The position numbers were made by a program, and so were the translations under genes. The notes beneath the pieces are model-generated. The model ran no database searches, had not been told where the DNA came from, and was given only the letters and a program-made list of their open reading frames with translations. Below, one piece after another: positions 10,678-30,744 of a DNA stretch of 36,461 bases. Within the stretch, counting starts at the first letter, position 1. Every line of letters begins with the position of its first letter. The DNA is from Myxococcales bacterium (lineage in GTDB: Bacteria > Myxococcota_A > Polyangia > Polyangiales > Polyangiaceae). The stretch spans positions 1 through 36,461 of the forward strand of contig JAAZAA010000160.1 in NCBI GenBank assembly GCA_012514535.1. Reading direction: 5' to 3'.

Positions 10678-10683
10678 GTTCCG

Positions 10684-12075
10684 ATGCGTTACCGTACCCA
10701 ATCCATCGCCTACTGGTACTTCGCCTTCGCAGTGTGCCTGTTCGGGCTGCAGATGGTCTTCGGGCTGCTCTCCGCGGTGAAGTACCTCGGCCCGGATCCG
10801 CTCATCGACATCATCCCGTTCGATCGCTCGAAGGCGGTTCACACGAACCTCCTCATCGTCTGGGTCCTGACCGGCTTCATGGGCGCGAGCTATTACGTGG
10901 TGCCCGAGGAGTCGCGCGCCGAGATCTACAGCCCGAAGCTCGCTTACTTCCAGCTCGGGCTCTGGGCCACTGGCGGCGTGACCGCCGTGGTGGGGTATCT
11001 CTTCGGCTGGACCACGGGGCACAAGCTGCTCGAGCAGCCGTATCCCGTGAAGCTCACGATCGTCATCGTGATGTTGATGTTCCTCTACAACATCCTGATG
11101 ACCATCCGGAAGGCGGGGCGCTGGACCACCACCGAGGGGGTGTTGATCGCCGGGCTCGGCCTGGCCGCCTTGCTCTATCTGCCGGCGCTGATCTCCTTCG
11201 ACAACTACACGATCAGCATCTTCTATCGCTGGTGGACGATCCACCTGTGGGTCGAGGGCGTCTGGGAGATGGTCCAGGCGGGCCTGCTCGCGTATCTGCT
11301 GATCCGCCTGTCCGGCGCCGATCGGGAGGTGATGGAGAAATGGCTCTACGTCATCGTCGGCCTGGTCTTCATCGCCGGCATCATCGGCACGGCGCACCAC
11401 TACTACTGGGTGGGGGTGCCCGCATACTGGCTCCCCATCGGTGGGCTGTTCAGCGCCCTCGAGCCCCTCGCCCTGTTCGTGATGGTGGCCTACGCCTACG
11501 TGGCGATGCGTCGCTCGGGGCTCAAGCACCCCAACAGCCTCGCCTTGCACTGGACGATCGGGAGCGCCATCTTCACCGCCTTCGGCGCGGGCCTGCTCGG
11601 GCTCGCCCACACCTGGCCCGCGGTGAACAAGTGGACCCACGGCACCCTGATCACGCCGATGCACGGGCACTCCGCCTTCTTCGGCGCCTACGTGATGATC
11701 AACCTCGCCATCATCACCTTCGCCCTGCCGACGCTCACCGACCGTCGTGAGGGCGAGGACCAGAAGCTCGGGTACTGGGCGTTCTGGCTCATGTCGGCGG
11801 GGATGTTCGGCATGACTCTGGCCTTCGCCGCGGCGGGCGTGGGGCAGGTGTACCTCGAGCGGATCATGGGCCTCGGCTACCTCGAGACCCAGCTCAAGCT
11901 GCAGGTCCACATGATCATGCTCACCGCGACGGGGGTGCTGTTCAGCATCGGCGTCGGGCTCTTCGTCTACGACTTCTTCCGGGCGCGCCCCCGCTTCATC
12001 ACGCAAGGGGACGGGGCGCCGCGGGGAGACGAGGAGGCCGCTCCCGACGACGGCGCGGCGGCGGAGCCTGCATGA
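10684..12075 (+). CDS. norB: Nitric oxide reductase catalytic subunit NorB (cNOR type)
   Basis: This 463-aa heme-copper-oxidase family protein reduces two NO to N2O in the cytoplasmic membrane. It has about 12 helices and all expected metal ligands: H53 and H329 for heme b, H327 for heme b3 (MHGHSAFFGAY), H187, H238 and H239 for the non-heme iron FeB (TIHLWVEGVWEM; GTAHHYYWVG), and the conserved glutamates E191 and E195. Its length matches NorB of the two-subunit NorCB enzyme, with no N-terminal quinol-oxidase extension of the qNOR type. The C-terminal tail is acidic and Ala-rich. It follows norC directly. Confidence 0.97.
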   Translation: MRYRTQSIAYWYFAFAVCLFGLQMVFGLLSAVKYLGPDPLIDIIPFDRSKAVHTNLLIVWVLTGFMGASYYVVPEESRAEIYSPKLAYFQLGLWATGGVTAVVGYLFGWTTGHKLLEQPYPVKLTIVIVMLMFLYNILMTIRKAGRWTTTEGVLIAGLGLAALLYLPALISFDNYTISIFYRWWTIHLWVEGVWEMVQAGLLAYLLIRLSGADREVMEKWLYVIVGLVFIAGIIGTAHHYYWVGVPAYWLPIGGLFSALEPLALFVMVAYAYVAMRRSGLKHPNSLALHWTIGSAIFTAFGAGLLGLAHTWPAVNKWTHGTLITPMHGHSAFFGAYVMINLAIITFALPTLTDRREGEDQKLGYWAFWLMSAGMFGMTLAFAAAGVGQVYLERIMGLGYLETQLKLQVHMIMLTATGVLFSIGVGLFVYDFFRARPRFITQGDGAPRGDEEAAPDDGAAAEPA

Positions 12076-12145
12076 GCTGGCGCGGGCTCGTCCCCGGGCG
12101 CGGCGCTGTACGTGCCCCGCGGGACGGGCCACCCTCTGACTCGGC

Positions 12146-12973
12146 ATGACCACATCAGGGAGCTCGAGCTCGACCGAGGGCGTGCGCCGGCTGCGCGAGG
12201 AGCCGTACTACCTCGCGACCGGCGACGAGGTGAGGATCTTCCAGCAGTGCCACGAGCGGCGCCTGGCGGTGATGCTCAAGGGGCCGACGGGGTGCGGCAA
12301 GACGCGCTTCGTCGAGCACATGGCGTGGCGGCTGGGGCGTCCCTTGATCACCGTGTCCTGCCACGACGATCTGTCCGCGAGCGACCTCACGGGGCGCTAC
12401 CTGGTCCGGGGCGGGGAGACGATCTGGCAGGACGGGCCGCTCACCCAGGCGGTGCGCATGGGCGCCTTGTGTTACCTCGACGAGGTGGTGGAGGCGCGGC
12501 AGGACACGGTCGTCGTCATCCACCCGCTGACGGACCATCGTCGCCTGCTGCCCATCGAGAAGACCGGGGAGCTCATCGAGGCGGCCGAGGGGTTTCAGCT
12601 CGTCGTCTCCTACAACCCCGGCTACCAGCACGTGCTCAAGGACCTCAAACCGAGCACGCGCCAGCGCTTCGTGGCCCTGGAGTTCGACTTCCCGCCGCCG
12701 GAGCGGGAGATCGAGATCGTCCAGCACGAGAGCTCCGTGGAGCGCGCCGTCGCCCACGAGCTGGTGGCCCTGGGAGGGCGGCTGCGTCACCTCCGCGATC
12801 GCGGCCTGGCGGAGGTGCCGAGCACGCGCCTGCTCGTGGCCGCGGCGCGGCTCATCGCCGGCGGCATCGACGCGAAGACGGCCTGCCGCGTGGGCCTGGT
12901 GGCGCCGCTGTCCGACGACGCGGAGCTGGTCGAGGCGATGCACGATCTGATCGATCTGACGATCGGCCGCTGA
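12146..12973 (+). CDS. norQ: NorQ MoxR-type AAA+ ATPase
   Basis: The 275-aa ATPase belongs to the MoxR/CbbQ/NorQ group, which works with a von Willebrand A partner (NorD) to insert FeB into NorB. Visible motifs are Walker A GPTGCGKT (46-53), Walker B ALCYLDEVVEAR (about 107-118) and sensor 1 VVSYNPGYQ. The CbbQ/NorQ C-terminal segment contains VPSTRLLVAAARLI. It begins 70 bp after norB and ends 19 bp before norD. Confidence 0.95.
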   Translation: MTTSGSSSSTEGVRRLREEPYYLATGDEVRIFQQCHERRLAVMLKGPTGCGKTRFVEHMAWRLGRPLITVSCHDDLSASDLTGRYLVRGGETIWQDGPLTQAVRMGALCYLDEVVEARQDTVVVIHPLTDHRRLLPIEKTGELIEAAEGFQLVVSYNPGYQHVLKDLKPSTRQRFVALEFDFPPPEREIEIVQHESSVERAVAHELVALGGRLRHLRDRGLAEVPSTRLLVAAARLIAGGIDAKTACRVGLVAPLSDDAELVEAMHDLIDLTIGR

Positions 12974-12992
12974 GGGCGGCTGGAGCCGGGCC

Positions 12993-14987
12993 ATGGCAGA
13001 ACCCGAAGAGCTCCTCCTCGACGGAGCCCACCACGCGACGCAGTTCGTCCGGCGCCTCTGGCGGCGCGGCGCGGAGGGGGCGGACCCGGCGGTGTTGCAG
13101 CTGGTCGACGTGCGCGCGCGGCTCGAGCTCTTCGTGCGGGCCGCCTTCGGGCTCTCGATGACGATCCGCGCCGCGGAGCCGCCCGCGGTGCCCTCCTGGT
13201 TCACGCGCCTCGGGCGGCGCATCCCCGCGCACCTCGTCGAGCGCGCGTGCGCGCCGGGCACCGACGGAGTCGTGCTGCGCCTCCCACCGGAGCTGCCCGT
13301 GGACGCGCGCGGGGGCGGTGGGCTCGCCACCTATCGTCTCTACGCGGCGGAGCAGGCGGCGCGGGCTCTGCGGGAGACGCCCCGCTTCCTCCCCGCGGAT
13401 CCTCTGGAGCGCGCGCTGTACCTCGTCCGAGAGGGGGCGGCCGTCGAGCGGCTGCTCGTGGACGAACTGCCGGGTCTCGGCGACGCCGTGCGAGAGGCCC
13501 GACGCGCGGCCCTGGCGAAGCGACCCGCCCGAGAGCGGCTGTCGGCGCAGGAGGCCGCCGTCGAGGCGGAGCTGCTGGCCGTGCTCGGCGACGATCCGAC
13601 GAGAGGCCCGCGGACGGGGCCGGAGGAGTCTCTGGCGTGGGCGGCGGAGCAGGCGACGCGGATTCGGGGCGTGCGGGGGCCGTTCCGCGGCGTCCCGCGC
13701 GTCATCCCGTGGGGCGAGGTGACCGCGCCGAGCGGGGGCGGGGAGCGGCTCGTCCGGGGCGCCGCGGACGAGCCGGAGGGCGACGCTCCGAAGCCCCGGG
13801 TCGCCAAGATGATCCGGCGACCCCGGGTGCGCAGCGCCGCGGACGACGAGGACGACCAGAACATGGGGATGTGGATGGTCCAGCTCGACGATCCGCAGGA
13901 GCACGTGGAGGACCCCATGGGCTTGCAGCGCCCCGCAGACCGCGACGGCGACGCGGATCCCGAGGGCCTCGCCGACTCCCTCTCGGAGCTGGAGGAGGCG
14001 CGCTTGGTGAAGACACCGGAGCGTCCCCGGGAGGTGCTCACCAGCGACGAACCCGTGCCCGTCGGTGCGGCGCAGGTGCGGCGCGAGGCGACCACTCCGG
14101 GCCTCGTGTACCCCGAGTGGGATTACCGCCGGCGCGCCTACCGCGAGCGCGGCGCCGTCGTGCGGGAGCGGGTGCCCGCCCTGGGGGATCCGCGCTGGGC
14201 GGAGCAGGTGCTCGCGCGCCGGGCGGCCCTTTTGCACGAGGTGCGCCGACGCTTCGAGCGCCTGCGGCCGCGCCGGGTCCGCCTCGGGCGGCAGCGCGAT
14301 GGGGTCGAGGTGGATCTGGCGGCGTACGTGGCGGCCCACGCGGACCGACGCGCCGGGCTCCCCGCCGACGATCGACTCTACGAGGCGGTCCGGTGCACCC
14401 GCCGGGACGTCGCCATCGCGCTGTTGGTCGACGTGAGCGCGTCGACGGACAGCTGGATCACGGGGGACCTCCGCGTGGTGGACGTGGAGAAGGAGGCGCT
14501 GCTCGTCGTCTGCGACGCCCTCGACGCGCTCGGCGATCCCTACACGATCCTGGCCTTCTCGGGGGAGGGGCCCGAGGCGGTGTCCGTGCGCCGGTTGAAG
14601 TCCTTCGAGGAGCAGATCGGGCCCCTCGTGCGGCGCCGGATCGCGGGCCTCGAGCCCGAGCGCTACACCCGCATGGGCGCGGCGCTGCGCCACGCCACGG
14701 CGCTCCTCGTCCGCAAGCCCGCCCGGCACCGCCTGCTGCTCGTCCTCTCCGACGGCAAGCCGAACGACGTGGATCAATACGAGGGGCGCTACGGCGTCGA
14801 GGACACGCGCCAGGCGGTCTGCGAAGCACGTCTGCAGGGGCTGCACCCCTTCTGCGTGACCGTCGACCGCCTGGCGCCCGCGTACATGCCGCGGATCTTC
14901 GGGAGCGGCGGGTACGCCGCCTTGCATCACCCCGAGCACCTGCCGTCGGTGCTGGTGGATGTGCTGCGGCGCCTCGTGAAGGCCTGA
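12993..14987 (+). CDS. norD: NorD von Willebrand factor A domain protein
   Basis: The 664-aa product is the NorQ partner needed to activate NO reductase. The N-terminal two thirds are helical and charged, with an acidic central segment (about 270-360). The C-terminal VWA domain carries the metal-ion-dependent adhesion site: DVSAST (from residue 480), a Thr in RYTRMGAAL, and LSDGKPND (from about 585). Length and order (norCBQD) match the family. A 7-bp inverted repeat overlapping the stop codon may end the transcript. Confidence 0.95.
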   Translation: MAEPEELLLDGAHHATQFVRRLWRRGAEGADPAVLQLVDVRARLELFVRAAFGLSMTIRAAEPPAVPSWFTRLGRRIPAHLVERACAPGTDGVVLRLPPELPVDARGGGGLATYRLYAAEQAARALRETPRFLPADPLERALYLVREGAAVERLLVDELPGLGDAVREARRAALAKRPARERLSAQEAAVEAELLAVLGDDPTRGPRTGPEESLAWAAEQATRIRGVRGPFRGVPRVIPWGEVTAPSGGGERLVRGAADEPEGDAPKPRVAKMIRRPRVRSAADDEDDQNMGMWMVQLDDPQEHVEDPMGLQRPADRDGDADPEGLADSLSELEEARLVKTPERPREVLTSDEPVPVGAAQVRREATTPGLVYPEWDYRRRAYRERGAVVRERVPALGDPRWAEQVLARRAALLHEVRRRFERLRPRRVRLGRQRDGVEVDLAAYVAAHADRRAGLPADDRLYEAVRCTRRDVAIALLVDVSASTDSWITGDLRVVDVEKEALLVVCDALDALGDPYTILAFSGEGPEAVSVRRLKSFEEQIGPLVRRRIAGLEPERYTRMGAALRHATALLVRKPARHRLLLVLSDGKPNDVDQYEGRYGVEDTRQAVCEARLQGLHPFCVTVDRLAPAYMPRIFGSGGYAALHHPEHLPSVLVDVLRRLVKA

Positions 14988-16501: not shown

Positions 16502-17674
16502 TCACCAGGAGGGCTGGACGAAGGGGCGCTCGGGGCGCCCGAACCGATACCCCTGCAGGAGGTCACAGCCGAGATCGATCAGCACGTCACGCTCCCCCTC
16601 CGTCTCCACGCCTTCGCCGACCACCGAATAGCCGAGGTCCTTGCAGACCTCCGTGAGGGAGCGGATGAGCCGTTGCTTCACGGGGCTGGAGTCGGCGTCG
16701 CGCACCAGGGACGTGTCGAGCTTGACCACGTCGGGTTCGAGCTGGACGAAGCTGGAGAGCCCCGCGTAGCCCGCGCCGAGATCGTCCACGGCGATCCGGC
16801 AGCCCGCCTCGCGCAGGGAGGCGATGCGCTCGCGTGCCGCAGGGACCTGCTCGAGGGAGGCGCGCTCGGTCACCTCGAGGACCAGCCGCGGCAGGTGCTC
16901 ATGGTGCTCGAGGAGATCGTCGAGGAGCGTGTCGTCCGCGAGATCCTGGGGGTGGAGGTTCAGGAACAGGATCCACTCCTGATCCGCGGTGAGCGTCGCG
17001 AGGGCACGTCGGCGGATGCAGCTGCCGAGGTCCCCGAGGCGGCCCAAACGCTCGGCGGCGTCCAGGAGGCTCCCGGGGTGGGGGAGGGTCGGCTCTTCGC
17101 TGCGGAGCAGCGCCTCGTAGCCGTAGAGCTTCCCGCCGTCCTTGGACACGATGGGCTGGAACGCGACCCACAAGCTCTCGAGGGCGAGCTCGAAGCTGGC
17201 CTCGAGGGAAGCCCGGCCGCCTTCTCCCGTGTGGGTACCGAGCTCCTGGAGCGCGAGGCGCTTCGCCGCCGCCAGGCGGTTGAGCTGGACCGCGCGGCGC
17301 ACCGAGGAGGTGAGCTGGTCCGGAGGCACGGGCTTCATGAGGTACTGCAGGGCGCCGTAGTTCACGGCCTCCGCCGCGCTCTCGATGGCGGGCGCGCCCG
17401 TGAGCAGGATGACGGGGACGTCCCGATCGTACTCGCGGAGCGCACGCAGGAGCTCCACGCCGCTCATTTCGGGCATGTTGATGTCCGTGACGACCGCGTC
17501 GAAGTCCTCCTGGGACGCCAGCGCGAGGGCCTCCTCGGCGCTGAGCACGGGCACCGCGTCGAACCCTTGGCGCGTGAGCCACGTCGCGTGGGCGTTCGCC
17601 ACCGCGCCTTCGTCGTCGACCAGCAGGACGCGTCCCTCGTGGAGGCTCGGGCGTGAGGGCGGGTTCGATGACAC
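16502..17674 (-). CDS. REC-EAL response regulator (cyclic-di-GMP phosphodiesterase-like)
   Basis: The 390-aa protein has a receiver domain (about 12-125) with LLVDDEG, the phospho-acceptor Asp in VVTDINMPEMSG, ILLTGAP and YLMKPV. An EAL domain follows (about 145-385) with EALLR, NLHP, LEVTE, VDDLGAGYAGL, VKLD, VGEGVET and LQGYRFGRP. All metal and general-base positions of active EAL phosphodiesterases appear present, so hydrolysis of c-di-GMP is likely. I chose GTG 17674 because GAGGAA lies about 8 nt upstream; residues encoded above it (to 17818) are basic and unlike a receiver N-terminus. No histidine kinase lies nearby. In a myxobacterium such proteins could affect motility or polysaccharide output (inference). 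Confidence 0.92.
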   Translation of the reverse strand: MSSNPPSRPSLHEGRVLLVDDEGAVANAHATWLTRQGFDAVPVLSAEEALALASQEDFDAVVTDINMPEMSGVELLRALREYDRDVPVILLTGAPAIESAAEAVNYGALQYLMKPVPPDQLTSSVRRAVQLNRLAAAKRLALQELGTHTGEGGRASLEASFELALESLWVAFQPIVSKDGGKLYGYEALLRSEEPTLPHPGSLLDAAERLGRLGDLGSCIRRRALATLTADQEWILFLNLHPQDLADDTLLDDLLEHHEHLPRLVLEVTERASLEQVPAARERIASLREAGCRIAVDDLGAGYAGLSSFVQLEPDVVKLDTSLVRDADSSPVKQRLIRSLTEVCKDLGYSVVGEGVETEGERDVLIDLGCDLLQGYRFGRPERPFVQPSW

Positions 17675-18050
17675 TTGGCTTTTCCTCGCGACGGCCTGAA
17701 TGCCTCGCCCTGCAAGATGCTCATACCCGGGGGGGAGCGTCAATTGATGGATGTGAAGATCTCGCGGTCGAAAGCGGCGACGTCGGTGCGTCCAGCGCTT
17801 CGTGAGTCGAGTGTTCACGCTGACTTCAGCCGGATGAGATAGGTGCCATCGGGTCGAACGAAGAGCTCACGGGTCCCGCCGATTCGTGGGAGAGGGGCGC
17901 ACCCATGCGCACCTCCTGCTCCGTCTTCTCGTTCCGTCGTCGCTCGCGGTGTTGAGGCGAGCGGACGATGAGGTGTCGCTCCAGGTTTCTTCGCGGGGGA
18001 CGCGGTCGTGCGCGTGCGGGAGGAGGTCGACCCGGCGCGATGCGATGTCG

Positions 18051-18134: not shown

Positions 18135-18153
18135 GATAATGATTTTCATCATT
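18135..18153. promoter_or_regulatory. Fur-box-like operator 1
   Basis: gataatgattttcatcatt matches 15 of 19 positions of the Fur consensus GATAATGATAATCATTATC and stands out as AT-rich in GC-rich DNA. It lies about 250 bp upstream of the TonB receptor start, so it may control a distal promoter or a leader RNA. Confidence 0.75.
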
Positions 18154-18342: not shown

Positions 18343-18365
18343 AAATGAAAATCGCTTTCATTATC
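18343..18365. promoter_or_regulatory. Fur-box-like operator 2
   Basis: The palindrome atgaaa-atcgc-tttcat sits within aaatgaaaatcgctttcatt; on the other strand the site begins gataatgaaagcgatttt and matches the 19-bp Fur consensus at 14 positions. It ends 38 bp before the receptor ATG, where a repressor would cover a proximal promoter. Confidence 0.72.
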
Positions 18366-18402: not shown

Positions 18403-21249
18403 ATGGAGTCTTTCCCTTTCCTTCCTTCGAATCGCCGGGCGTCCGTCGCGACGGCCGCGGCGCTGCTCCTCCTGTCGGTGCCCCGTGAGGCCCGCTCCGA
18501 GGTGCCGAGCGATCGATCCCCCATGGAGGAGACCGACGTCGCAGAGCGCGAAGCGGAGCGGGGCGCCGCTGAGCGAGGCGCCGCAAAGCGCGGCGCAGAG
18601 CGCGAAGCGGACCACGGCGCTGCGGAGCGAGGCGCCGGACGGCGAGACACCGCGCCCGACGCGGCGGAACACGACGCCGACGGGCGCGCCGTGGAGCGAG
18701 ACGCCAACGAGACCAGCGACGCCCCGAACGGCGACCCTGACGGAGCCACCGACGACGGCTCCTCTTCGGTCCCTCCGGGCGGCGTCGTCCCGCCGAAGCT
18801 CGTCGACGTGGGGGATCTCACCCTCTCGGAGGAGGCGCGGGCGGAGGCCCGCCGCACCCCGATCGAGCTCGAGCTGATCGTCGGCGCCGACGGGGCCGTG
18901 CGCGACGCGGTGATCCGATCCGGGCCCCCAGGGGGCGCGGCGGAGGTCGTGCGCGACGCGGCCCTCGGCTTTCGTTTCGAGCCCGCTCGGCGGGATGGGA
19001 GGGCGGTCGCCGCTCGCGTGCTGTATCGCTACGAGCCCCCCGCGGCTCCCGCGGGTCCTTCGTCTTCTGCGGCTCCCGCGGGCGTCGCTCCGACCGGCCC
19101 CGCGCCGGTCTCATCGCCCGCCGAGCCCCCGCCGACCTCTGCGCCGCCGCTCGTCGACGGAGCACCCCTCCCCGACGCCGACGCCGCCCCTGCTCCACCG
19201 GAGGAGGTGATCGTCCGGGGACGTCGCCCTGCGGACGCCCTGCGTCGCTCCGCGAACGCGGTGGTGGTCCTGGAGGTCGAGGACGCCCGGCGGCACGCGG
19301 CGGACCTCGGGGAGGTCCTGCAGCGGACGAGCAGCGTGAACGTCCGCCGGCAGGGAGGGCTCGGCTCGGCCGCGCGCGTGTCCATGGCCGGCCTCGGCGG
19401 GGACCAGCTGCGCTTCTTCCTCGACGGGATCCCCCTCGAGTACGCGGGCTTCCCCTTCGGCGTGGCCAACGTCCCGGTGAACGTCGTCCAGCGCGTCGAG
19501 GTGTACCAGGGGGTGGTGCCGGCGCGCTTCGGCGCCGACGCCTTGGGGGGCGCGGTGCACCTGGTCACCGACGAAGGGGTGCGCCGGGATCGCGCGTCGG
19601 CCTCCTACCAGCTGGGCTCCTTCGAGACGCACCGCGTGACCGCCAGCGCGCAGAAGTACGACGCCGCCTCGGGCGCCTTCGGGCGCGTGCTCGGGTTCTT
19701 CGACACGGCCGAGAACGACTACCCCGTGGACGTCGAGCAGGTCGACGCCTCGGGCCGGCTCGTCCCCACCACCGCGCGGCGCTTCCACGACGGGTACACG
19801 GCTGGCGGAGGGCAGCTGTCCGTGGGGCTCGTCGACCAGAGCTTCGCGGATCGGATCGTCGCCACCGCCTTCGTCACCGCCTTCGAGCGGGACATCCAGC
19901 ACGACCCGGCGATGCAGGTGCCCTACGGGGAGGTCACCTTCGGCAAGCGCAGCGCGGGCGGTCACCTGCGCTACGCCCACGCGCTCTCGACGCACCTCGA
20001 GATCGACGCGACCGCCGGCTACGGCCACGTGGCCACGAGCTTCGTCGACGTGGGCAGCTGCCGCTACGACTGGCGCGGAGGGTGCCTCGTCGACCTCGCC
20101 CCGATCCGCGGCGAGATCAACCAGATCCCGGTGGATCGGCGGGTCAGTGATCACACCGGGTACGCGCGCGCGGAGCTGCGCTGGTTCGCGAGCCCCGACG
20201 ATGAGATCCGGCTGGCGCTGGCGCCGACGGTCTTCCGGCGCTGGGGGGACGATCGGGAGATCTCCGGCGAACGCTACGACGCGCTGAACGCGACCCAGGA
20301 GCTCGACAGCGCCGTGCTCGGCCTCGAGTGGGAGCGGCGCTTCCTCGACGGCCGCATCGCCAACATCGCCTTCGGCAAGGCCTACGGCCAGCTGATGCGC
20401 AGCGAGCAGCTGCTCGCCACGGGGATCTTGGATCGCCCCGAGCGCGTCACCTTCGAGGGCGGCGGGGGCAACGCGCTGCGGGTGCTGCTGACCGACGAGA
20501 CCTACCTCAAGGCGTCCTACGAGTACGCGACGCGGCTCCCGAACCCCGAAGAGGTGTTCGGCAACGGGGGCCTGGTGGTGCGCAACCTCGGCCTTTTGCC
20601 GGAGCGGAGCCACAACCTCAACCTCGGCGCCTTCGCCGACGCCCACCCGACGCGGATCGGTGAGCTTCGCGGCTCCGTGAACTTGTTCGGGCGACTCTCC
20701 GACGACCTGATCCGCCTGGTCAACGGGGGCAACTACCTCGTCTACGAGAACGTGCTCACGGCGCGCACGTGGGGTGTCCTCGGCTCCTTCGGCTGGGAGG
20801 CGCCCCGGCGCGTGGCCGGGCTCGCCGGGAACGTGAGCTGGCAGGACGTCCGCAACCTCTCCCGCTCGGGGCCGGCGGCGCCCTTCGAGGGGGATCGCAT
20901 CCCGAACCTCCCCTATCTGCAGGGCAGCGCCGAGGGCCGCTTGCGCGCCTTCGACGTCCTCGCCGCGCGGGACTCCCTGGAGCTGCTCTGGACGACCTCC
21001 TTCGTGCGCCGCTTCTTCCTCGCCTGGGAGAGCGCCGGCGATCCGAACCTCAAGCTCACGGTTCCCGATCAACTCACCCACGGGTTGGCCCTCACCTACC
21101 TGCGGCAGCACGGCCCCGAGCCCCGGTCGTCCACCCTCGCGACGACCCTCGAGGTCCAGAACCTCACCAACGCAAAGGTCTTCGACTTCTACGGCGTCCA
21201 GCGCCCGGGGAGGTCGGTGTTCGTCAAGATCGCGCTCGACGTGAACTGA
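18403..21249 (+). CDS. TonB-dependent receptor with N-terminal TonB-like domain (XusA-like)
   Basis: The 948-aa outer-membrane receptor likely imports an iron chelate. After a signal peptide (basic start, then SVATAAALLLLSV) comes a charged 18-residue tandem repeat region (about 45-82) and an acidic linker. A TonB C-terminal-like domain follows (about 125-205; GGVVPPKLVDVG to LGFRFEPARRDGRAVAARVL), then a Pro/Ala linker, a plug domain (about 268-395; EEVIVRGRR, LGEVLQRTSSVNVRRQGGLG, RVEVYQGVVPARFGADALGG) and a 22-strand-type barrel ending RSVFVKIALDVN. ATG 18403 is chosen over a GTG at 18385 because it gives a conventional signal peptide. Fur-like sites upstream indicate iron repression. The next gene starts 23 bp downstream. 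The substrate is unknown. Confidence 0.93.
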   Translation: MESFPFLPSNRRASVATAAALLLLSVPREARSEVPSDRSPMEETDVAEREAERGAAERGAAKRGAEREADHGAAERGAGRRDTAPDAAEHDADGRAVERDANETSDAPNGDPDGATDDGSSSVPPGGVVPPKLVDVGDLTLSEEARAEARRTPIELELIVGADGAVRDAVIRSGPPGGAAEVVRDAALGFRFEPARRDGRAVAARVLYRYEPPAAPAGPSSSAAPAGVAPTGPAPVSSPAEPPPTSAPPLVDGAPLPDADAAPAPPEEVIVRGRRPADALRRSANAVVVLEVEDARRHAADLGEVLQRTSSVNVRRQGGLGSAARVSMAGLGGDQLRFFLDGIPLEYAGFPFGVANVPVNVVQRVEVYQGVVPARFGADALGGAVHLVTDEGVRRDRASASYQLGSFETHRVTASAQKYDAASGAFGRVLGFFDTAENDYPVDVEQVDASGRLVPTTARRFHDGYTAGGGQLSVGLVDQSFADRIVATAFVTAFERDIQHDPAMQVPYGEVTFGKRSAGGHLRYAHALSTHLEIDATAGYGHVATSFVDVGSCRYDWRGGCLVDLAPIRGEINQIPVDRRVSDHTGYARAELRWFASPDDEIRLALAPTVFRRWGDDREISGERYDALNATQELDSAVLGLEWERRFLDGRIANIAFGKAYGQLMRSEQLLATGILDRPERVTFEGGGGNALRVLLTDETYLKASYEYATRLPNPEEVFGNGGLVVRNLGLLPERSHNLNLGAFADAHPTRIGELRGSVNLFGRLSDDLIRLVNGGNYLVYENVLTARTWGVLGSFGWEAPRRVAGLAGNVSWQDVRNLSRSGPAAPFEGDRIPNLPYLQGSAEGRLRAFDVLAARDSLELLWTTSFVRRFFLAWESAGDPNLKLTVPDQLTHGLALTYLRQHGPEPRSSTLATTLEVQNLTNAKVFDFYGVQRPGRSVFVKIALDVN
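18541..18648. repeat. 54-bp imperfect tandem duplication inside the receptor gene
   Basis: A 17-mer, gcagagcgcgaagcgga, recurs at 18541-18557 and 18595-18611, and gagcgaggcgccg recurs at 18571-18583 and 18625-18637, both at 54 bp. The unit encodes 18 residues, AEREAERGAAERGAAKRG then AEREADHGAAERGAGRRD, a charged periplasmic linker. Confidence 0.85.
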
Positions 21250-21271
21250 GCGCCCGCAAAGGAAAACGCAC

Positions 21272-22564
21272 ATGAAATCGACTTGGAAGTACGCACTCGT
21301 CGCGCTGTTGGGCGGGCCCCTCGTGGGTCTGGTGGCCTGCAGCGACGACTCGAGCTCGAGCAACCCTGGTGGATCCACGGGAGGCGATCGGTCGACGGGG
21401 GGTGGGTCTTCGGGCGGGGGCGGAGCAGGCGGCGAGGGCGGCGAGGGCAGCGGCGGGGAAGACGCCGTCTACGCCGTCGTCACCCAGGTCTTCGGCGAGA
21501 GCGACAACACGAGCTACATCGTCACCACGCAGGATCTGTCGGGGAGCGAGCTGTCCCTGGCGAGCGGCATCGAGATCAATGGTCGCGCCATCGCCGCCGG
21601 CCCCACGAACGGCGGCCGGCTCTTCGTCGGCACGGACCTGGGCGCCACGGTGACCCGCTACGATCTGACCGCCGACGGGGACCTCGAGCGGGCGGGGCAG
21701 GTCAGCTTCGCGGGCGCCGGTCTCACCTCCCTGGGGGAGTACGCCGGGCAGTTCCAGTTCGTGGCCGAGGACAAGGCGTACTTCTTCGACGGCAGCACGG
21801 CCCAGGTGATCGTCTGGAACCCGGAGGAGATGACGTACACCAAGTCCCTCGATCTGTCGTCGCTCGTGTTCGACGGTGAGCTCCTGACCTTCGGCGGCGT
21901 GCCGCTGCGCGTTGGCGGTGAGCTGCTCGCCTTCGCGGGGTGGCGCACCAACGACAACGCCCAGGTCCCCGATCGAGCCGCCGTCATCCTGGTCGACACG
22001 GAGACGGACGCGGTCACGATCGCCACGGACGAGCGCTGCGGCTACGTGCGCGACGGCGTGCTCGCGGAGGATGGCTTCGTCTACCTCGCGACAGAGGCCT
22101 TCGGCGCGGCCGTGCACCACATGAACGAAGAGAACGCCTCGCCGCCGTGCCTGCTGCGCTTCGATCCGGAGGCGGGTGAGTTCGACGAGTCCTTCCACGT
22201 CGACCTCACGACCCTCTTCGACGACGCGGTCGCGGGCACGCTGCTCATCGGGCCTGGCAATCAGCCGTACCTCCTCGCCCTCGACGCGGCGGAGTACGAG
22301 GGGCCGCCGGTGCCCCGCGTCCTCGCCAGCAGCCCCGTGTGGCGGCTCGCGAAGCTGACCACCGGTGACGCGCCGAGCGTGGAGCTCCTCGACGGCGACC
22401 CGTTGCCCGGGAGCATCCTGCCCGCCGCCTTCGGCGACGACGTCTACCTGCCCGTGTTCGCGGGGCGGGAGTCGACGGAGATCGTGGAACTCGAGGCCGC
22501 GGGCCTCGGTGCGGTCGCCGCCTCCACCCCGGGCCTCGCGTTCTCGTTCGTGAAGCTGCGCTGA
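21272..22564 (+). CDS. Beta-propeller-like lipoprotein (XusB/DUF4374-like), TonB-receptor partner
   Basis: The 430-aa protein has a lipoprotein signal with lipobox LVAC (Cys23) followed by Ser, which fits outer-membrane retention, then a Ser/Gly-rich linker of about 40 residues. The rest is beta-rich with repeated blade-like segments (AVVTQVFGESDNTSYIV, GRLFVGTDLGATVTRYDL, KAYFFDGSTAQVIVWNPEEM, DGVLAEDGFVYLATEAFG). Composition, length and position between a TonB receptor and a PepSY protein match DUF4374 lipoproteins such as XusB, which binds ferric siderophore at the cell surface in Bacteroides. An aaagga ribosome site precedes ATG 21272. I assign a ferric-chelate-binding role by context; the domain match needs a profile search. 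Confidence 0.75.
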   Translation: MKSTWKYALVALLGGPLVGLVACSDDSSSSNPGGSTGGDRSTGGGSSGGGGAGGEGGEGSGGEDAVYAVVTQVFGESDNTSYIVTTQDLSGSELSLASGIEINGRAIAAGPTNGGRLFVGTDLGATVTRYDLTADGDLERAGQVSFAGAGLTSLGEYAGQFQFVAEDKAYFFDGSTAQVIVWNPEEMTYTKSLDLSSLVFDGELLTFGGVPLRVGGELLAFAGWRTNDNAQVPDRAAVILVDTETDAVTIATDERCGYVRDGVLAEDGFVYLATEAFGAAVHHMNEENASPPCLLRFDPEAGEFDESFHVDLTTLFDDAVAGTLLIGPGNQPYLLALDAAEYEGPPVPRVLASSPVWRLAKLTTGDAPSVELLDGDPLPGSILPAAFGDDVYLPVFAGRESTEIVELEAAGLGAVAASTPGLAFSFVKLR

Positions 22565-22572
22565 CCTGAGCC

Positions 22573-23745
22573 ATGAAGCCCATCCCCGTCCCCCGCTCGG
22601 TCGAGCCCCGCCCCGCGCAGCAGCCGAAATGGTGGCTGCGCTCTCTGCGGCTGATCCGCCGCGTGCACCTGTACCTGGGCCTGTTGCTCATGCCGTGGGT
22701 GCTGCTGTTCGCGATCACGGCCCTGTCCTTCAACCACCCCGGCATGTGGCGCGATTTGCAGGGCAGCACCCTGTCTCCCGAGCGCGTCCGCGAGCTCGTC
22801 GGGTTCCAACCCTGGGACGCCGACGTCCTCGCCGAGCGGGTGGCGACGGCGATGGGCGCGACGCCGAGCGACGCCGTGCCATCGAGCGACGCCGTGCCAT
22901 CGAGCGACGCTGCGACGCCGAGCGACGCTGCGGGGACGGGCACGGAAGCCGGCGGCGTCGTGGCCTCGCCCGCGGCGTCGTCACCGGCTCCGAACGCCCC
23001 GCCCGCGGAGCGCGGCGGCTACGAGGTGGTGCCGGGCTCGGCGTCCTTCCACGGCTGGGCTCTGTTCGCTCGCCCCGCGCCGGAGGGGCAGCGGGTCGTC
23101 ATCCTGGCCCTCGATCGGGGCGAGGCGTTCCTGTCGACCCGCCCTCCGACGAGCGAGAGCGCGAAGCCGCCCTTCTTCGGGGAGCGGGTGAGCCTCCCGG
23201 AGCACAACACGGAGGCCCTGGCGAAGGTGCTCGAGCCGATCCACGCGGACGATCTGGGCGCGGACGCGGCGCCGCTGCGCCCGCACCCCAGGATCCGCCC
23301 GGAGCTGCGCTTCCAGGTGCGCGACGATCGGGGAGACTCCTGGAACGTCGTCTACGACCTCGGAACGGGCCTGCTCGATGGGCGCCCCACCCAGGAGGTC
23401 TCCAGCACGCCCACGATCGAGCTGCTCGAGTCGTTGCACAAACAGCACCACTATCCCCCGAGCTTCGCGGCGAGCAGCGTCTGGGCGCTGTTCGCCGATC
23501 TCACGGCGATCACCTTGCTGTTCTGGTGCCTGAGCGGCCTGCTCATGTGGTGGCAGATGAAGAAGCTGCGCTGGGTCGGGGCGAGCCTGTTGGTGCTCGC
23601 CGTCGTGGTCGCCACCCTGGTCATGACCAGCACCGCCGCCGAGATCACCTTCCCGCCGGAGCGCGCCGAGGGATCGACGGCCCCGGGCGGCGCGCCCCCG
23701 GGAGCCTTCGCTCAGGGGCTCGTCGAAGCCTCCCGGGGCGTCTGA
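22573..23745 (+). CDS. PepSY-associated membrane protein (XusC-like, putative ferric reductase)
   Basis: The 390-aa protein begins with a basic segment and the PepSY-TM signature RRVHLYLGLLLMPWVLLF with its conserved His. A large periplasmic part with a PepSY-like region follows (FQVRDDRGDSWNVVYDLGTG), then LLESLHKQHHYP and C-terminal helices (FADLTAITLLFWCLSGLLMW; ASLLVLAVVVATLVM). Conserved histidines suggest b-type heme and transmembrane electron transfer, as in proteins that reduce ferric chelates. It starts 8 bp after the lipoprotein gene, completing a receptor-lipoprotein-PepSY operon. An insert of four 18-bp repeats (22867-22938; SDAVPS-type) forms part of a low-complexity Ala/Ser/Pro segment in the periplasmic loop. 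Confidence 0.88.
   Translation: MKPIPVPRSVEPRPAQQPKWWLRSLRLIRRVHLYLGLLLMPWVLLFAITALSFNHPGMWRDLQGSTLSPERVRELVGFQPWDADVLAERVATAMGATPSDAVPSSDAVPSSDAATPSDAAGTGTEAGGVVASPAASSPAPNAPPAERGGYEVVPGSASFHGWALFARPAPEGQRVVILALDRGEAFLSTRPPTSESAKPPFFGERVSLPEHNTEALAKVLEPIHADDLGADAAPLRPHPRIRPELRFQVRDDRGDSWNVVYDLGTGLLDGRPTQEVSSTPTIELLESLHKQHHYPPSFAASSVWALFADLTAITLLFWCLSGLLMWWQMKKLRWVGASLLVLAVVVATLVMTSTAAEITFPPERAEGSTAPGGAPPGAFAQGLVEASRGV
22867..22938. repeat. Four 18-bp tandem repeats in the PepSY gene
   Basis: The unit agcgacgccgtgccatcg is exact at 22867-22884 and 22885-22902 and diverges at 22903-22920 and 22921-22938. It keeps frame (SDAVPS, SDAVPS, SDAATP, SDAAGT). Copy-number change would lengthen or shorten the loop without frameshift. 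Confidence 0.9.
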
Positions 23746-25739: not shown

Positions 25740-28502
25740 TCAGGGAGCGCTCGGCGCGGAGCCGGACCGGCTCGCCCGCTCCATGATCTCCCGTCGCCGA
25801 GCCTCCACGTGCCGCGCCGCCCGCTCGTCCTCGGCGTCGACGCGCGTCTCCGCGCGCCGCAAGGCCGCGAGAGCGCGGCCATGAGCTCCCTGGCGACTCG
25901 CCGCGTCCGCCACGCGCAGCCACGCCGCCGCGGTCTCGAGGGCGCCGGCTGCGCCGGCGTAGTGGGCCAGGGCGGGCCCCCACAGCTGGCGGCGCGCGTG
26001 GAGATCGCCGATCCACAGCCGCGCGTCGCCGCAGGCGGCCTGCGTGCGACAGGCCGCCGCCAGGTACGCCTGGCTCGGGGCGTCGAGGGGGAGATCGTCC
26101 GTTGCCGCGCTGAGCTCCACGGCGCGGCGCAGACAGGTGGAGTCCCGCCGGGGGCAGCGCTCGAGCAGGAACGCGATGGCCGCCTGCTGCTCTCCCCGCG
26201 CCGCCAGGAGCGAACCTTCGAGCTCGACGGCGTGGACGTTCCCGGGATCCGTGGCGCGGAGCCGCGCGAGGTGCTCCGCCGCCGCCTCCGTCGCCCCCTC
26301 CCGCAGCAGATCGCGGATCAGGGTCACCCGCGCGCTCCCGAGGGTCGGATCCCGAGTGAGGGCGTCCTCGAGGAAACGGCGCCGCCAGGGGCCTCTCTCC
26401 GGATCCTTGGGCGACAGGGTGACCGCGAGCCGGGACAGCAACACCGCGCCTCCCTGGTGCTCGGGCACGGCCCGCTCCACGTCATCGAGATCCTTCGCCC
26501 ACGCCAGGGCCAGCCGGGCCACGGAGGGAGCGAGGCCCGGCTCGTGCTCCGTGGCGAGGCGCAGGTGCAGGAGCGCCTGGGAGCGGGCGCCGCGTCGGGC
26601 GAGGGTCTCCGCGAGCAACAGGTGCATGCGTCCGCTCCTCGGGTCGCGCTCGAGGACACGACCGATCCACGGGAGCGGCGTCGCGCCGGGCGTGTGCCGC
26701 GCCGCCAGAGCGCCGAGGCGAGGGAAGAAGGCCTCTCCGGGGTGACGTGCCATCGCGCCGCGGAGCTGGGCGTAGAATGCGTCGCGGGCGCGGGGATCCG
26801 TGAGCTCGGCGGCGTCGTAGGCACGCGCCAGCTCCCGCCGATCGGCGTGGGCGCTGCGGAGGCCCCCGAAGATCACGAGGACACAGCTCAGCGCGCCGGC
26901 CCCCACGAGCAGCCACGCCGTCCTGGGGGCGGAGGCGCGCGCGGGAGGGTCGACGCTCCCATCCCGGGCGCCCCAGAGACCGCCGAGGGCCGCGGCGACG
27001 GCGATGAAGACGCCGGGCAACGCGAAGGCGAGATCGACGAGGTTCTGCAGGCACACCACGGCGACGCCGATCGCGAGGGTGGCGGCGAGGCGGCTGCGGT
27101 GGGCTCCGAGCCGGCGCGGGCGAAACGTCCAGAGCAGGGCGAGCAGAGTCCCGAGCCCCACGGGGACGCCCCACTCGGCGACCCACGCGAGGGCGAAGTT
27201 CTCCGGGTGCGCCCACAGGGAGCCGCCTTCGGGGCGGTACCTGGGGGAGGCCGCTTCGAAGGCGCCGGCGCCGACGCCGAACCAGAGGTGATCGGCGACG
27301 AGCGGAGTGACCCACTCGATGACGGCGAGCTTCTCCAGCCCCTCCTGGCGGAGGTCGTCCCAGGTCGTCCGCTGGGCGCCCACGAGCGCGAGGAGCACGC
27401 CCCCCGCGAGCGCGCAGGCGACGGGCCAGCTCCAGATCCGGCGGCGACGCTCCCGAGGATCCCCCACCCGCGGAACGAGCAGGGCCACGAGGGTCCAACC
27501 GCCGAAGAGCGCGAGCAGGCCCCCGCGCGACGCGGCGAGCACCGTCTGTCCCATCAGGAGCGCCGTGCCGAGGGCCACCGCCCAGCGCGCGACGGAGGAG
27601 CGACCTCGGCGCGAGCCCGTCCACGTCGACGATCCCGTCCAGCTCGACACGTCGAAGCTGTCCGTCTCTGGACCGGACGCTCCTGAACCGGGCGCGTCCT
27701 CCACGCTGGACCAGGCGCTGCCAGGCCCGGTCACAGCAGCCCCGGTCATTGCAGCCCCGGACGCGCGGGACCACGACGTGCGGGACGACAGCAGCAGACC
27801 CAGGCCCGCGAAGGTCCCGAGGTTGAGGTAGCCCGCGAGGTTGTTGGGGTTGAGGAGCGGCGAGGTCACCCAGCGCGTCGGCGTGAAGGTCGGCTCGTAG
27901 ATCCCGAACACCCGGGAGGCGTCGAGCAACCCGTGGGCGAGCGTGACGAGCGCCAGCACCACGGCGCTCGAGAAGACGAGGGTCGCCACCGCGGGCGCGC
28001 CGTGCTCCCGCCCTACGCTCGCTGCCAGCCCGAAGGTCGCCGCGTAGGTGATCCACTCGAGGGCTTCGGCGAGGGAGGCGCCGCGGTCGATGGACAGGCT
28101 GCCCCAGGTCACCTCCTCGCCGAAGGGCAGCAGCGCGCGGGCCCACACGTCGGCGCTCGCGGGAGCCAGCGCGCGGAGCAGCTCGATGGGCAGCGGGGCG
28201 CTCTGCACCAGGCAGTACGCAGCGACCCCGAAGGCCAGAGAGACCGCGGGCATCGACCTCCAACGGTCGGCGGCCCGGGCCCAGGCGACGCCCGCGCAGG
28301 CGAACACCGCCACCACGAGTAAAGTGAGGCGGTGCACCGTGCCGATCGCCAGCACGGAGCCGAGCAGCAGCGCGCCGAGGTGCGCCGTCAGCAGGGGCCC
28401 GGTGGCGGTGCGTCGCGCGCGCGGGCGACTGCGTCGAGCTCTGCGTCGCCGAGGGCGTGCGGGCGAGCGCTCCGCGAGCGCTCGGGTCGAGTCCATCTCC
28501 AT
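25740..28502 (-). CDS. O-antigen ligase/Wzy polymerase-like membrane protein with C-terminal TPR region
   Basis: The 920-aa protein has a basic N-terminus, then about 12 hydrophobic helices (about 35-570) with Wzy_C/O-antigen-ligase features: NPNNLAGYLNLGTFAGLGLL and AHPENFALAWVAEWGVPVGL. A hydrophilic Ser/Gly/Thr-rich insert (about 240-300, with SSWTGSSTWTGS) interrupts the membrane region. The C-terminal 330 residues are helical TPR-like repeats (ETLARRGARSQALLHLRLAT; AEHLARLRATDPGNVHAVEL). Such proteins polymerise or ligate lipid-linked repeat units in the periplasm. It lies 16 bp downstream of the Wzz/BY-kinase gene, so both form an exopolysaccharide assembly operon. The substrate is unknown. 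No glycosyltransferases occur nearby. Confidence 0.88.
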   Translation of the reverse strand: MEMDSTRALAERSPARPRRRRARRSRPRARRTATGPLLTAHLGALLLGSVLAIGTVHRLTLLVVAVFACAGVAWARAADRWRSMPAVSLAFGVAAYCLVQSAPLPIELLRALAPASADVWARALLPFGEEVTWGSLSIDRGASLAEALEWITYAATFGLAASVGREHGAPAVATLVFSSAVVLALVTLAHGLLDASRVFGIYEPTFTPTRWVTSPLLNPNNLAGYLNLGTFAGLGLLLSSRTSWSRASGAAMTGAAVTGPGSAWSSVEDAPGSGASGPETDSFDVSSWTGSSTWTGSRRGRSSVARWAVALGTALLMGQTVLAASRGGLLALFGGWTLVALLVPRVGDPRERRRRIWSWPVACALAGGVLLALVGAQRTTWDDLRQEGLEKLAVIEWVTPLVADHLWFGVGAGAFEAASPRYRPEGGSLWAHPENFALAWVAEWGVPVGLGTLLALLWTFRPRRLGAHRSRLAATLAIGVAVVCLQNLVDLAFALPGVFIAVAAALGGLWGARDGSVDPPARASAPRTAWLLVGAGALSCVLVIFGGLRSAHADRRELARAYDAAELTDPRARDAFYAQLRGAMARHPGEAFFPRLGALAARHTPGATPLPWIGRVLERDPRSGRMHLLLAETLARRGARSQALLHLRLATEHEPGLAPSVARLALAWAKDLDDVERAVPEHQGGAVLLSRLAVTLSPKDPERGPWRRRFLEDALTRDPTLGSARVTLIRDLLREGATEAAAEHLARLRATDPGNVHAVELEGSLLAARGEQQAAIAFLLERCPRRDSTCLRRAVELSAATDDLPLDAPSQAYLAAACRTQAACGDARLWIGDLHARRQLWGPALAHYAGAAGALETAAAWLRVADAASRQGAHGRALAALRRAETRVDAEDERAARHVEARRREIMERASRSGSAPSAP

Positions 28503-28518
28503 CCCAGAACGGCGAGGG

Positions 28519-30744
28519 TCAGGCGGCGGACTCGTCGGCGCCGTAGCCCTCCTTCTTGTAGGCGTAGTACTGGTAGTAGCCGTACTCGCTGCGCCCGAAA
28601 TCGACGTCGTTCAGGACCGCCCCGGCGATGCGCGCGTTGACGTCCCGCAGGGAGCGCACGGCCTGCTTGGCGAGATCCTTGCGGGTCTGGAAGGCGCGCA
28701 CCACGACCACCGTGGCGTCCACGAGGCTCGACAGGATGGCGGCGTCCGTGACGGGCACCAGAGGCGGGCTGTCGATGACGATCTGATCGAAGCGCTCCGA
28801 GAGCGTGTCGAGGAGCCTCTGGAAGCTCGCGCTGTGCAGGAGCTCGGCGGGGTTGGGGGCGATGGGGCCCGTGGGCAGCACGCTGAGGTTCGGGACCTCC
28901 GTCGGCGTGATGGCGCCGTCGAGGAGGCTCGGATCGAGCAGCGCCGTGGTCACCCCGCCCCGGGCGCCGCTGGTCCCGAACACCTTGTGGAGCCGCGGGC
29001 GCCGCAGATCGGCGTCCAGGAGGAGCACCGATTTGCCCGACTGGGCGAGGGCCGTGGCGAGGCAGCACGCGACCGTCGTCTTGCCCTCCGAAGGGCCCGC
29101 GCTGGTGACGAGGAGGCGCCGGAACGGCTCGTCCGGCGACATGAAGACGATGTTCGTGCGCAGGGCGCGCACCGCCTCCGCCACGCCGCTGGTGGGGTGG
29201 GCGTGGACGTAGAGCTCCTGGGGCCCTTCCGTCGCTTTGCCGCGGTGACGGCGGCGGCGTGAGGGGAGAGGAGCGGCGTCGGCGCTCTTCGGAGCGGCCT
29301 CGATCTGAGGCAAGAGGCCGAGGCAGGTCAGCTGCAGGTGCTGCTCGATGTCCGTGGGCACCTTCACCCGGCGATCGAGGAGCTCTCGCGCCATGACCAC
29401 GCCCAGCCCGAGACCGAGCCCGCCGAACATGCCCAGCGCCAGGCTCAGGCCCACGCGGGGTCGGATCGGCAAGCGAGGCAGGAGCGGAGCGTCGACGACG
29501 CTCACGTTGTTGAAGCGCATCTGGCTCGTGACGTCGCTCTGCTTGGCTCGCTCCAGGACGAGCGAATACATCCGCTCGGTGTTCTCCTTGTTGCGGGCGA
29601 GCCGGTTGAACTCGATCTCCAGCAGGTTCAAATCCAAGGCGCGCTGCTTCGCCGCCTCGTAGAGCTTGGCGAGCCCGGCGGCTTCCTTCTCGACCGCGAG
29701 GAGATCGCGGCGGTAGGCCTCCTGGATGTTCTTGACCTCGTCGAGGAGGGCCTTGCGGGCCGTCGCCATGGTGGCGTTGGTGCTCAGCACGTCCGGGTGA
29801 TTCTCGCCCTTGCCGGCCTTCTCGAGGCTGTCCCGCGTCGTGCGCGCGAGGAGGTAGTTGCTGCGGAGCTCTCGCAAGACGGCGCTGTTGAGGAGCTCGG
29901 CCGCGGGCAGCGAGTCGGGATCGTTGGGATCGACCCGGTCGAGCTGGGACACCCGCGCCGCCAGCTGCTCCCGACGCGCTCGCGCCGCGGTGAGCTCCCG
30001 GTGCAGCTGCTGCATCTCGTCCCGCAGCATGTTCGACTGGTCGTCGAGGGACACCGACAGCAGCTGGTTCTTCTTTTTGTATTCGTGGAGGTCGAGCTCG
30101 CTGGCCTCGAGCTCCTCCTTGAGCTTGACGAGCTGCGCGTTCAGCCAGTCCCCGGCGGTCCCCATGTTCGTCAGGGACTGCTCGAGGTTCTGCTGGATGT
30201 AGGTGTCCGCCAACGTCGCCAGGACGCGCCGCGCCCGCTCCGGATCCGCGTCGTCGAACTTGAGCTCCACGAGCCGGCTGTTCTTGACCGGCTCCACGCC
30301 GAGGCGCTTCTGCAGCATGCCCGCGGTCTCCTCGATGGTGTACTCCCGCTCGAGCTCCACCTCCGCGTCCGCGGGCCGCATGAGCACGAAGCTGGCGTCC
30401 CGATGCAGGCTCAGGATCCGTACGGTCTCCTCGGCCACCTTGCGGCTCTGGATGATCTTGTACTGGGTCTCGTAATACTCTTTGTTCGTCCAGTAGTAGT
30501 CCGACGACTCACCGGGCGCCTGGACCTCTTTGCCCAGGGGACGGATCGCCGCGGGCTCGATCTTCAAGGTCATCGCCGCCTGGTAGATCTTCGTCTGCCC
30601 CCGGACGACGAACCCGACGAGCACGGTCACCCCGGCCATGATCATCAGCACGAGGCGCCAGTGCTTGCGCAGCACCGCCCACAGCGAGGCGAGCTGAAGC
30701 TCCGAGGTCTCCCCCAGGGTCTCGGCGTGTGGCGACTCCGTCAC
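28519..30744 (-). CDS. Wzz chain-length determinant fused to BY-kinase (CpsD-type)
   Basis: The 741-aa protein controls polysaccharide chain length and export. An N-terminal Wzz domain has a first helix (about 27-48; WRLVLMIMAGVTVLVGFVV), an extended coiled-coil periplasmic part, and a second helix near 430-455 (GLSLALGMFGGLGLGLGVV). The cytoplasmic BY-kinase has Walker A GPSEGKTT (about 550-557), Walker A' LLLDADLRRPRL and Walker B IVIDSPPLVPV. The C-terminus bears seven tyrosines in SEYGYYQYYAYKKEGYG, the autophosphorylation cluster. I start at GTG 30744, which has AGGGG upstream; the open frame above it (to 30978) is Arg/Pro-rich. It is followed by the Wzy-like gene. Confidence 0.93.
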   Translation of the reverse strand: MTESPHAETLGETSELQLASLWAVLRKHWRLVLMIMAGVTVLVGFVVRGQTKIYQAAMTLKIEPAAIRPLGKEVQAPGESSDYYWTNKEYYETQYKIIQSRKVAEETVRILSLHRDASFVLMRPADAEVELEREYTIEETAGMLQKRLGVEPVKNSRLVELKFDDADPERARRVLATLADTYIQQNLEQSLTNMGTAGDWLNAQLVKLKEELEASELDLHEYKKKNQLLSVSLDDQSNMLRDEMQQLHRELTAARARREQLAARVSQLDRVDPNDPDSLPAAELLNSAVLRELRSNYLLARTTRDSLEKAGKGENHPDVLSTNATMATARKALLDEVKNIQEAYRRDLLAVEKEAAGLAKLYEAAKQRALDLNLLEIEFNRLARNKENTERMYSLVLERAKQSDVTSQMRFNNVSVVDAPLLPRLPIRPRVGLSLALGMFGGLGLGLGVVMARELLDRRVKVPTDIEQHLQLTCLGLLPQIEAAPKSADAAPLPSRRRRHRGKATEGPQELYVHAHPTSGVAEAVRALRTNIVFMSPDEPFRRLLVTSAGPSEGKTTVACCLATALAQSGKSVLLLDADLRRPRLHKVFGTSGARGGVTTALLDPSLLDGAITPTEVPNLSVLPTGPIAPNPAELLHSASFQRLLDTLSERFDQIVIDSPPLVPVTDAAILSSLVDATVVVVRAFQTRKDLAKQAVRSLRDVNARIAGAVLNDVDFGRSEYGYYQYYAYKKEGYGADESAA

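Follow-up and report, generated by a model that had tools for sequence, protein, structure and literature searches.

The receptor, lipoprotein and PepSY operon

Three genes follow one another on the forward strand of the window, the 36,461-nucleotide stretch of DNA analysed here, and encode a TonB-dependent receptor, a lipoprotein and a short PepSY_TM membrane protein (Table 1). They are separated by 22 bp (receptor/lipoprotein) and 8 bp (lipoprotein/PepSY), and codon-position profiles favour their reading frames over those of overlapping ORFs. An earlier note on this DNA had described the same three reading frames in the same order, all of which we recover, and had given their spacing as 23 bp and 8 bp; the second value stands and the first is corrected to 22 bp. 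The trio is a genuine operon with a Xus-like arrangement. Its 5' neighbour is a gene for an EAL-domain response regulator on the opposite strand (16502-17818), and on its 3' side lies a convergent ferredoxin-NADP reductase-like gene. Elsewhere in the window, a row of cytochrome c, COX1-type, NorQ-type AAA and VWA genes (9856-14987) resembles a nitric oxide reductase cluster, and O-antigen-ligase-like and polysaccharide tyrosine autokinase genes occupy positions 25740-30978.

The 584-bp gap preceding the receptor gene contains both of the Fur-box-like sites that the earlier note had placed in front of the operon. They are the best and second-best consensus matches across the whole 36-kb window, with 16 and 14 of 19 positions matching; when this gap was resampled 2000 times under a first-order Markov model, the top score was 14. 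Judging from these sites, expression of the operon would be expected to respond to iron. Fur-box-like sites 5' of the receptors at other loci are patchy, and are strong only at C48 (see below) and L054.

Table 1. Genes, protein domains and candidate regulatory sites of the operon, in window coordinates.
Feature	Position	Strand	Evidence
Fur-box-like site 1	18135..18153	.	16/19 against the GATAATGATAATCATTATC consensus, better strand
Fur-box-like site 2	18347..18365	.	14/19; about 38 bp 5' of the receptor start
TonB-dependent receptor, MxcH/XusA type (P0001, 948 aa)	18403..21249	+	NF038079; 9gbc_A; Pfam Plug and barrel
N-terminal TonB_C-like domain, residues 142-207	18826..19023	+	Pfam TonB_C, 15.5 bits, below cut-off; region matched by the first part of the MxcH model
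Plug domain, residues 281-384	19243..19554	+	Pfam PF07715, 58.1 bits
XusB-like lipoprotein (P0002, 430 aa)	21272..22564	+	Profile of 15 relatives; hhalign; Foldseek/VIA
Lipobox Cys23, invariant across the 15-member family	21338..21340	+	Alignment
Ser/Gly-rich linker between lipid anchor and predicted propeller	21341..21463	+	Translation
Predicted beta-propeller, about 366 residues	21464..22561	+	AlphaFold2 model; VIA Z 17.0 to B. fragilis XusB
Short PepSY_TM membrane protein in XusC-like position (P0003, 390 aa)	22573..23745	+	PF03929, 43.7 bits; PF16357, 31.7 bits

The receptor is of the MxcH family

Against the NCBIfam model of MxcH (NF038079), the TonB-dependent receptor for the siderophore myxochelin, the receptor scores 958.5 bits, above the curated equivalog cut-off of 925 (958.9 bits in the whole-genome search). 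Among solved receptors, a PDB search places XusA nearest (9gbc_A; 207 bits, E 4.7e-60, residues 269-944), the entry 9GBC being the XusAB complex of Bacteroides thetaiotaomicron (PMC13142918), and BtuB second (46 bits, E 1.5e-11), so that XusA leads by 160 bits. In the receptor tree the window protein groups, with support of 96/97, with receptors from the myxochelin cluster of genus g18 and with two others from genomes in which no DHB-AMP ligase was matched; this clade stands apart from the Bacteroidota receptors. The N-terminal TonB_C domain is over the Pfam cut-off in the two relatives' receptors tested (49 and 59 bits); a Spirosoma receptor carries a carboxypeptidase-like domain at the same place.

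A tblastn search of 72,556 plasmids with the receptor returned nine records, every one from Bacteroidota. Among those of the nine whose gene order was looked at, the receptor is followed by a DUF4374 gene and then a PepSY gene on Spirosoma plasmid unnamed1 and in Bacteroides finegoldii, by a hypothetical gene and then a PepSY gene on Aureibacter pAT1, and by a DUF4374 gene on Aureibacter pAT2.

The window genome also encodes a second MxcH receptor (L013, G000:C48:460-4765; 1061 bits), which is associated with a 16/19 Fur-box-like site and with a convergent XusB-like lipoprotein gene (34% identical). On contigs C132, C275, C190, C19 and C149 of this genome (G000), several other long ORFs match the first, TonB_C-bearing part of the MxcH model, the C132 protein being a fusion of TonB_C, carboxypeptidase-like, Plug and barrel domains. 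Receptors that include a TonB_C domain of their own seem to be common in the window genome.

The lipoprotein is XusB-like

As a single sequence, the lipoprotein scores 11.8 bits against Pfam DUF4374 (PF14298), under the gathering score of 25, and because of this shortfall we name it XusB-like rather than a DUF4374 member. A PDB search with the same single sequence gave mostly artefacts of the Gly/Ser linker. We describe its relationships through a family alignment of 15 relatives found next to MxcH-type receptors, from which one lipoprotein (L052:14425-15657) was excluded as a non-member. The top five PDB matches of the family profile are all XusB structures: that of B. fragilis gives the strongest match (full-length, E 2.8e-8), with B. 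theta XusB next, and BtuG-type proteins follow (E ~3e-5). Seven of the 15 family members match DUF4374 (best E 1.5e-7), and hhalign joins the family end to end, over 371 columns and at 99.5%, with a Bacteroidota XusB-like set of six proteins of equivalent gene position (E 3e-23, a value that refers to this one pairwise comparison).

The fold is predicted to be a propeller in two structure models, both of low confidence and each built from a two-sequence alignment (mean pLDDT 49 and 59). For the first, the best Foldseek match is B. fragilis XusB; for the second, an AlphaFold2 model with pTM 0.64, Foldseek places a BtuG-type protein first and VIA-align places XusB first (Z 17.0), with other, unrelated propellers close behind (Z 15-16). 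Since the best Foldseek match switches from XusB to BtuG between the two models, fold alone cannot separate XusB from BtuG, and it is sequence comparison that carries the XusB assignment. The relationship to XusB/DUF4374 that the earlier note had supposed for this protein thus survived a check by profile and structure, through the family profile, the DUF4374 matches among relatives, the hhalign comparison and the VIA-align result.

Acidic residues follow the lipobox cysteine (CSDDSS), as they also do in other lipoproteins of these genomes; exposure of the protein at the cell surface is putative. It is 50-53% identical to the lipoproteins of the g18 myxochelin clusters. The residue of B. theta XusB that contacts ferric enterobactin, Arg167, aligns with Arg255 of the window lipoprotein, and an Arg is found at this position in 12 of the 15 relatives; because B. 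fragilis XusB also seems to carry it, Arg255 does not decide the ligand class.

Two further observations concern this family more widely. In genus g33, a long PepSY gene and a single receptor of MxcH type have at least two XusB-like lipoprotein genes near them (L044:3122-6977 and L045:13303-15848), which suggests several ligands for one receptor. In a Phocaeicola DUF4374 protein (L114:7062-8450), residues 153-459 match residues 38-348 of B. theta XusB and residues 43-149 match residues 353-465; the structure 9gar is collinear with the Phocaeicola protein, unlike B. theta XusB (PDB 9gcy/9gbc_B/8gex). This alignment suggests that B. theta XusB is circularly permuted relative to its family, which may explain why its hook lies in blade 2 rather than in blade 4; the term “permutation” is absent from the main text of the Xus paper (PMC13142918).

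A reduced PepSY protein

P0003 passes the cut-offs of both PepSY_TM (PF03929) and PepSY_TM_like_2 (PF16357). It is a reduced form, short of the usual length, and its 390 residues include a low-complexity insert. Identity to the g18 PepSY protein is 38%, and His32, His55 and the HxxHH motif of P0003 are common to the PepSY proteins of the g18 myxochelin clusters. By analogy with FoxB-like proteins such as HiuB (PMC12424826), P0003 may act as a reductase.

Relatives carry the trio in siderophore clusters

We searched 379 sampled genomes of the phylum with NF038079 and, separately, with the lipoprotein profile, and both searches returned the identical 20 genomes; these represent 14 genera, so they are not independent, and the lipoprotein profile itself derives from neighbours of receptors. 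In the 359 genomes that lack the receptor, the profile search found no lipoprotein. Repetition of the receptor–lipoprotein pair in the same 20 genomes places the Xus-like arrangement far beyond chance. Within the 20, receptor and lipoprotein lie at most 4 kb apart in 18, and on different contigs in G362 and G223. Two genomes of the window genome's own genus are without the lipoprotein. The placing of the window in Myxococcota follows from its family-level kinship with carriers of the myxochelin cluster, together with the established occurrence of that cluster.

These results bear out the extension of a Xus-type system beyond Bacteroidota, into Myxococcota, that had been put forward in the earlier note, and its likeness to XusABC is upheld by the proximity of the receptor to XusA, the match of the lipoprotein profile to XusB, the PepSY_TM protein and the same gene order on Bacteroidota plasmids. 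Two points were lacking from that account: the MxcH-family identity of the receptor, and the presence of orthologous trios in clusters for 2,3-dihydroxybenzoate (DHB) siderophores.

In producing relatives, the trio or parts of it lie inside such clusters. Genus g18 has the trio within a true myxochelin cluster, which at L040 includes isochorismate synthase and DHB dehydrogenase besides MxcG (2559 bits); the MxcK exporter was found at L038, the corresponding cluster of another g18 genome. At five further loci from four other genera (L051, L121, L122, L123 and L124) the lipoprotein gene lies inside a cluster with DHB-type biosynthesis genes; it adjoins a short PepSY gene in L121, L122 and L123 and a long one in L051, no PepSY gene was detected in L124, and the stretch covered at L123 contains no receptor. 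Orthologous trios in DHB-siderophore clusters, together with an MxcH-family receptor, indicate catecholate ligands, and with the identities of the window lipoprotein and PepSY protein to those of g18 they suggest a myxochelin-type catecholate.

Siderophore synthesis in the window genome

A DHB-AMP ligase is found at E<=1e-100 in 7 of the 20 genomes, in four of them over the curated cut-off. The same search of the window genome, a draft rated 98.76% complete whose 442 contigs may have missed a cluster, returned NRPS-like matches only (at 119 bits, with the cut-off at 723.55), and no myxochelin biosynthesis genes lie within the window. Given the absence of the DHB-AMP ligase, import of foreign siderophores is likely, and the window genome most likely takes up the catecholate siderophores of others, for which prey are not necessarily the source. 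An isochorismate synthase over cut-off was considered as a sign of DHB synthesis and rejected, as a MenD-like gene adjoins it and indicates menaquinone. Another locus of this genome (L105, G000:C170:26000-39600) contains two NRPS-like ORFs of ~2300 aa each, whose product is possibly another siderophore.

Proposed mechanism and alternatives

In our judgement the trio is probably a Fur-controlled, Xus-type ferric-siderophore uptake operon with an MxcH-family receptor, which takes up foreign siderophores of the catecholate (myxochelin) type. The direct basis for this reading is the gene order, the family homology of all three proteins, the co-occurrence, the cluster context, the Fur-box-like sites and the absence of a DHB-AMP ligase. 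Under low iron, Fur repression of the operon would be relieved. The beta-propeller lipoprotein, held at the outer membrane by its flexible Ser/Gly tether, would then bind a ferric siderophore that is, like myxochelin, a catecholate of the 2,3-dihydroxybenzoyl type and, in complex with the receptor as its lid-like partner, would hand the siderophore over; the receptor would carry it through the outer membrane in a TonB-powered step, and reduction by the inner-membrane PepSY_TM protein would release the iron. Relatives whose trios lie in DHB-siderophore clusters would use this route to take back their own product, and the window genome, with the uptake part and without the biosynthesis part, would use it for the siderophores of its neighbours.

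The mechanism might operate unchanged on another ligand, a hydroxamate of the ferrichrome type. B. fragilis XusB, which binds ferrichrome, is short and is without the hook that is linked to catecholates, and short hookless forms are associated with hydroxamates in Bacteroides (PMC13142918). It is with this very protein that the lipoprotein profile aligns full-length and most strongly, and the window propeller is itself short and apparently hookless. Against a hydroxamate, the nearest relatives of all three genes sit in 2,3-dihydroxybenzoate clusters and the receptor falls inside a supported clade that holds myxochelin-cluster receptors; we therefore regard this ligand as unlikely, if worth keeping in view.

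Other substrates altogether are far less plausible. That the operon serves vitamin B12 uptake in the manner of BtuB-BtuG could be argued from the BtuG-type lipoproteins, which match both the lipoprotein profile and the structure model, and from BtuB as the solved receptor that comes after XusA. The lead of XusA over BtuB and the passing of the MxcH cut-off speak against it, as do the siderophore-cluster context and the regulatory sequences: the whole window is without a match to a cobalamin riboswitch or to any other Rfam family at gathering score, and has Fur-box-like sites instead. We consider B12 uptake very improbable. Slighter still is the chance that the receptor and PepSY protein handle another metal, such as copper, a role reported for some pairs of this kind. 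PepSY_TM proteins are tied also to copper and oxidase function (PMC12914433, PMC13038864), and the nitric oxide reductase-like gene cluster lies 5' of the operon; MxcH membership, the Fur-box-like sites and the linkage of relatives to siderophore synthesis all run counter to such a role.

Implications of a Xus-type module in Myxococcota

Lipoprotein-assisted siderophore uptake has so far been seen as iron piracy by Bacteroides, a member of a phylum with no known siderophore production. Here the same type of module occurs in siderophore-producing clusters of another phylum, as well as in apparent non-producers without such clusters. Lipoprotein-assisted siderophore uptake reaches past Bacteroidota, and it would serve siderophore producers too. 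This suggests what a lipoprotein and a PepSY gene, both unnamed, may do in myxochelin-type clusters, offers a clear comparison between producers and non-producers, and runs counter to the proposal that catecholate binding is tied to the XusB hook. A broader reading, for and against which we see the balance as even, is that Xus-type lipoprotein-assisted uptake is an ancient module common to Bacteroidota and Myxococcota, which in Myxococcota would form part of catecholate clusters for self-uptake and would have been retained without biosynthesis by many non-producers living on the siderophores of others; on this reading catecholates would be bound by a XusB that is short and apparently without a hook, contrary to the hook rule. 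The literature searched contains no description of XusB-like proteins from Myxococcota, though an earlier one may exist, for instance in the original papers on the myxochelin cluster.

Comparison with known systems

The hiuABC system of Caulobacter crescentus, a species with no known siderophore production, likewise pairs a Fur-regulated receptor with a PepSY protein for the uptake of xenosiderophores; it differs from the window operon in that no lipoprotein is described for it and in that its ligands are hydroxamates (PMC12424826). BtuB-BtuG, the B12 uptake system of Bacteroides, resembles the window operon in pairing a TonB-dependent receptor with a propeller lipoprotein, whose place at the surface is putative in the window operon, and in its similar predicted fold. 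Both window proteins are less similar to it in sequence, and the cobalamin riboswitch is absent.

With XusABC of B. thetaiotaomicron the window operon has in common its gene order and tight spacing, a homologous receptor, a distantly homologous lipoprotein with a predicted propeller, and a PepSY_TM protein. It departs from XusABC in a lipoprotein that falls below the DUF4374 cut-off and is short like the hookless type, in the receptor N-terminus (TonB_C in Myxococcota relatives as against the domain seen in Spirosoma, where tested) and in the reduced PepSY protein; some of its relatives, moreover, make their own siderophore. With the MxcH/myxochelin cluster (NF038079; NF038078, MxcG; NF038077, MxcK) it is linked by a receptor over the MxcH cut-off and by the g18 trio within that cluster. 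The window trio stands alone, in a genome without a DHB-AMP ligase, and no NCBIfam model at or above cut-off names its lipoprotein or its PepSY protein. By its family match, the window receptor is an MxcH-type receptor without the cluster, for which transport of ferric myxochelin is a putative function.
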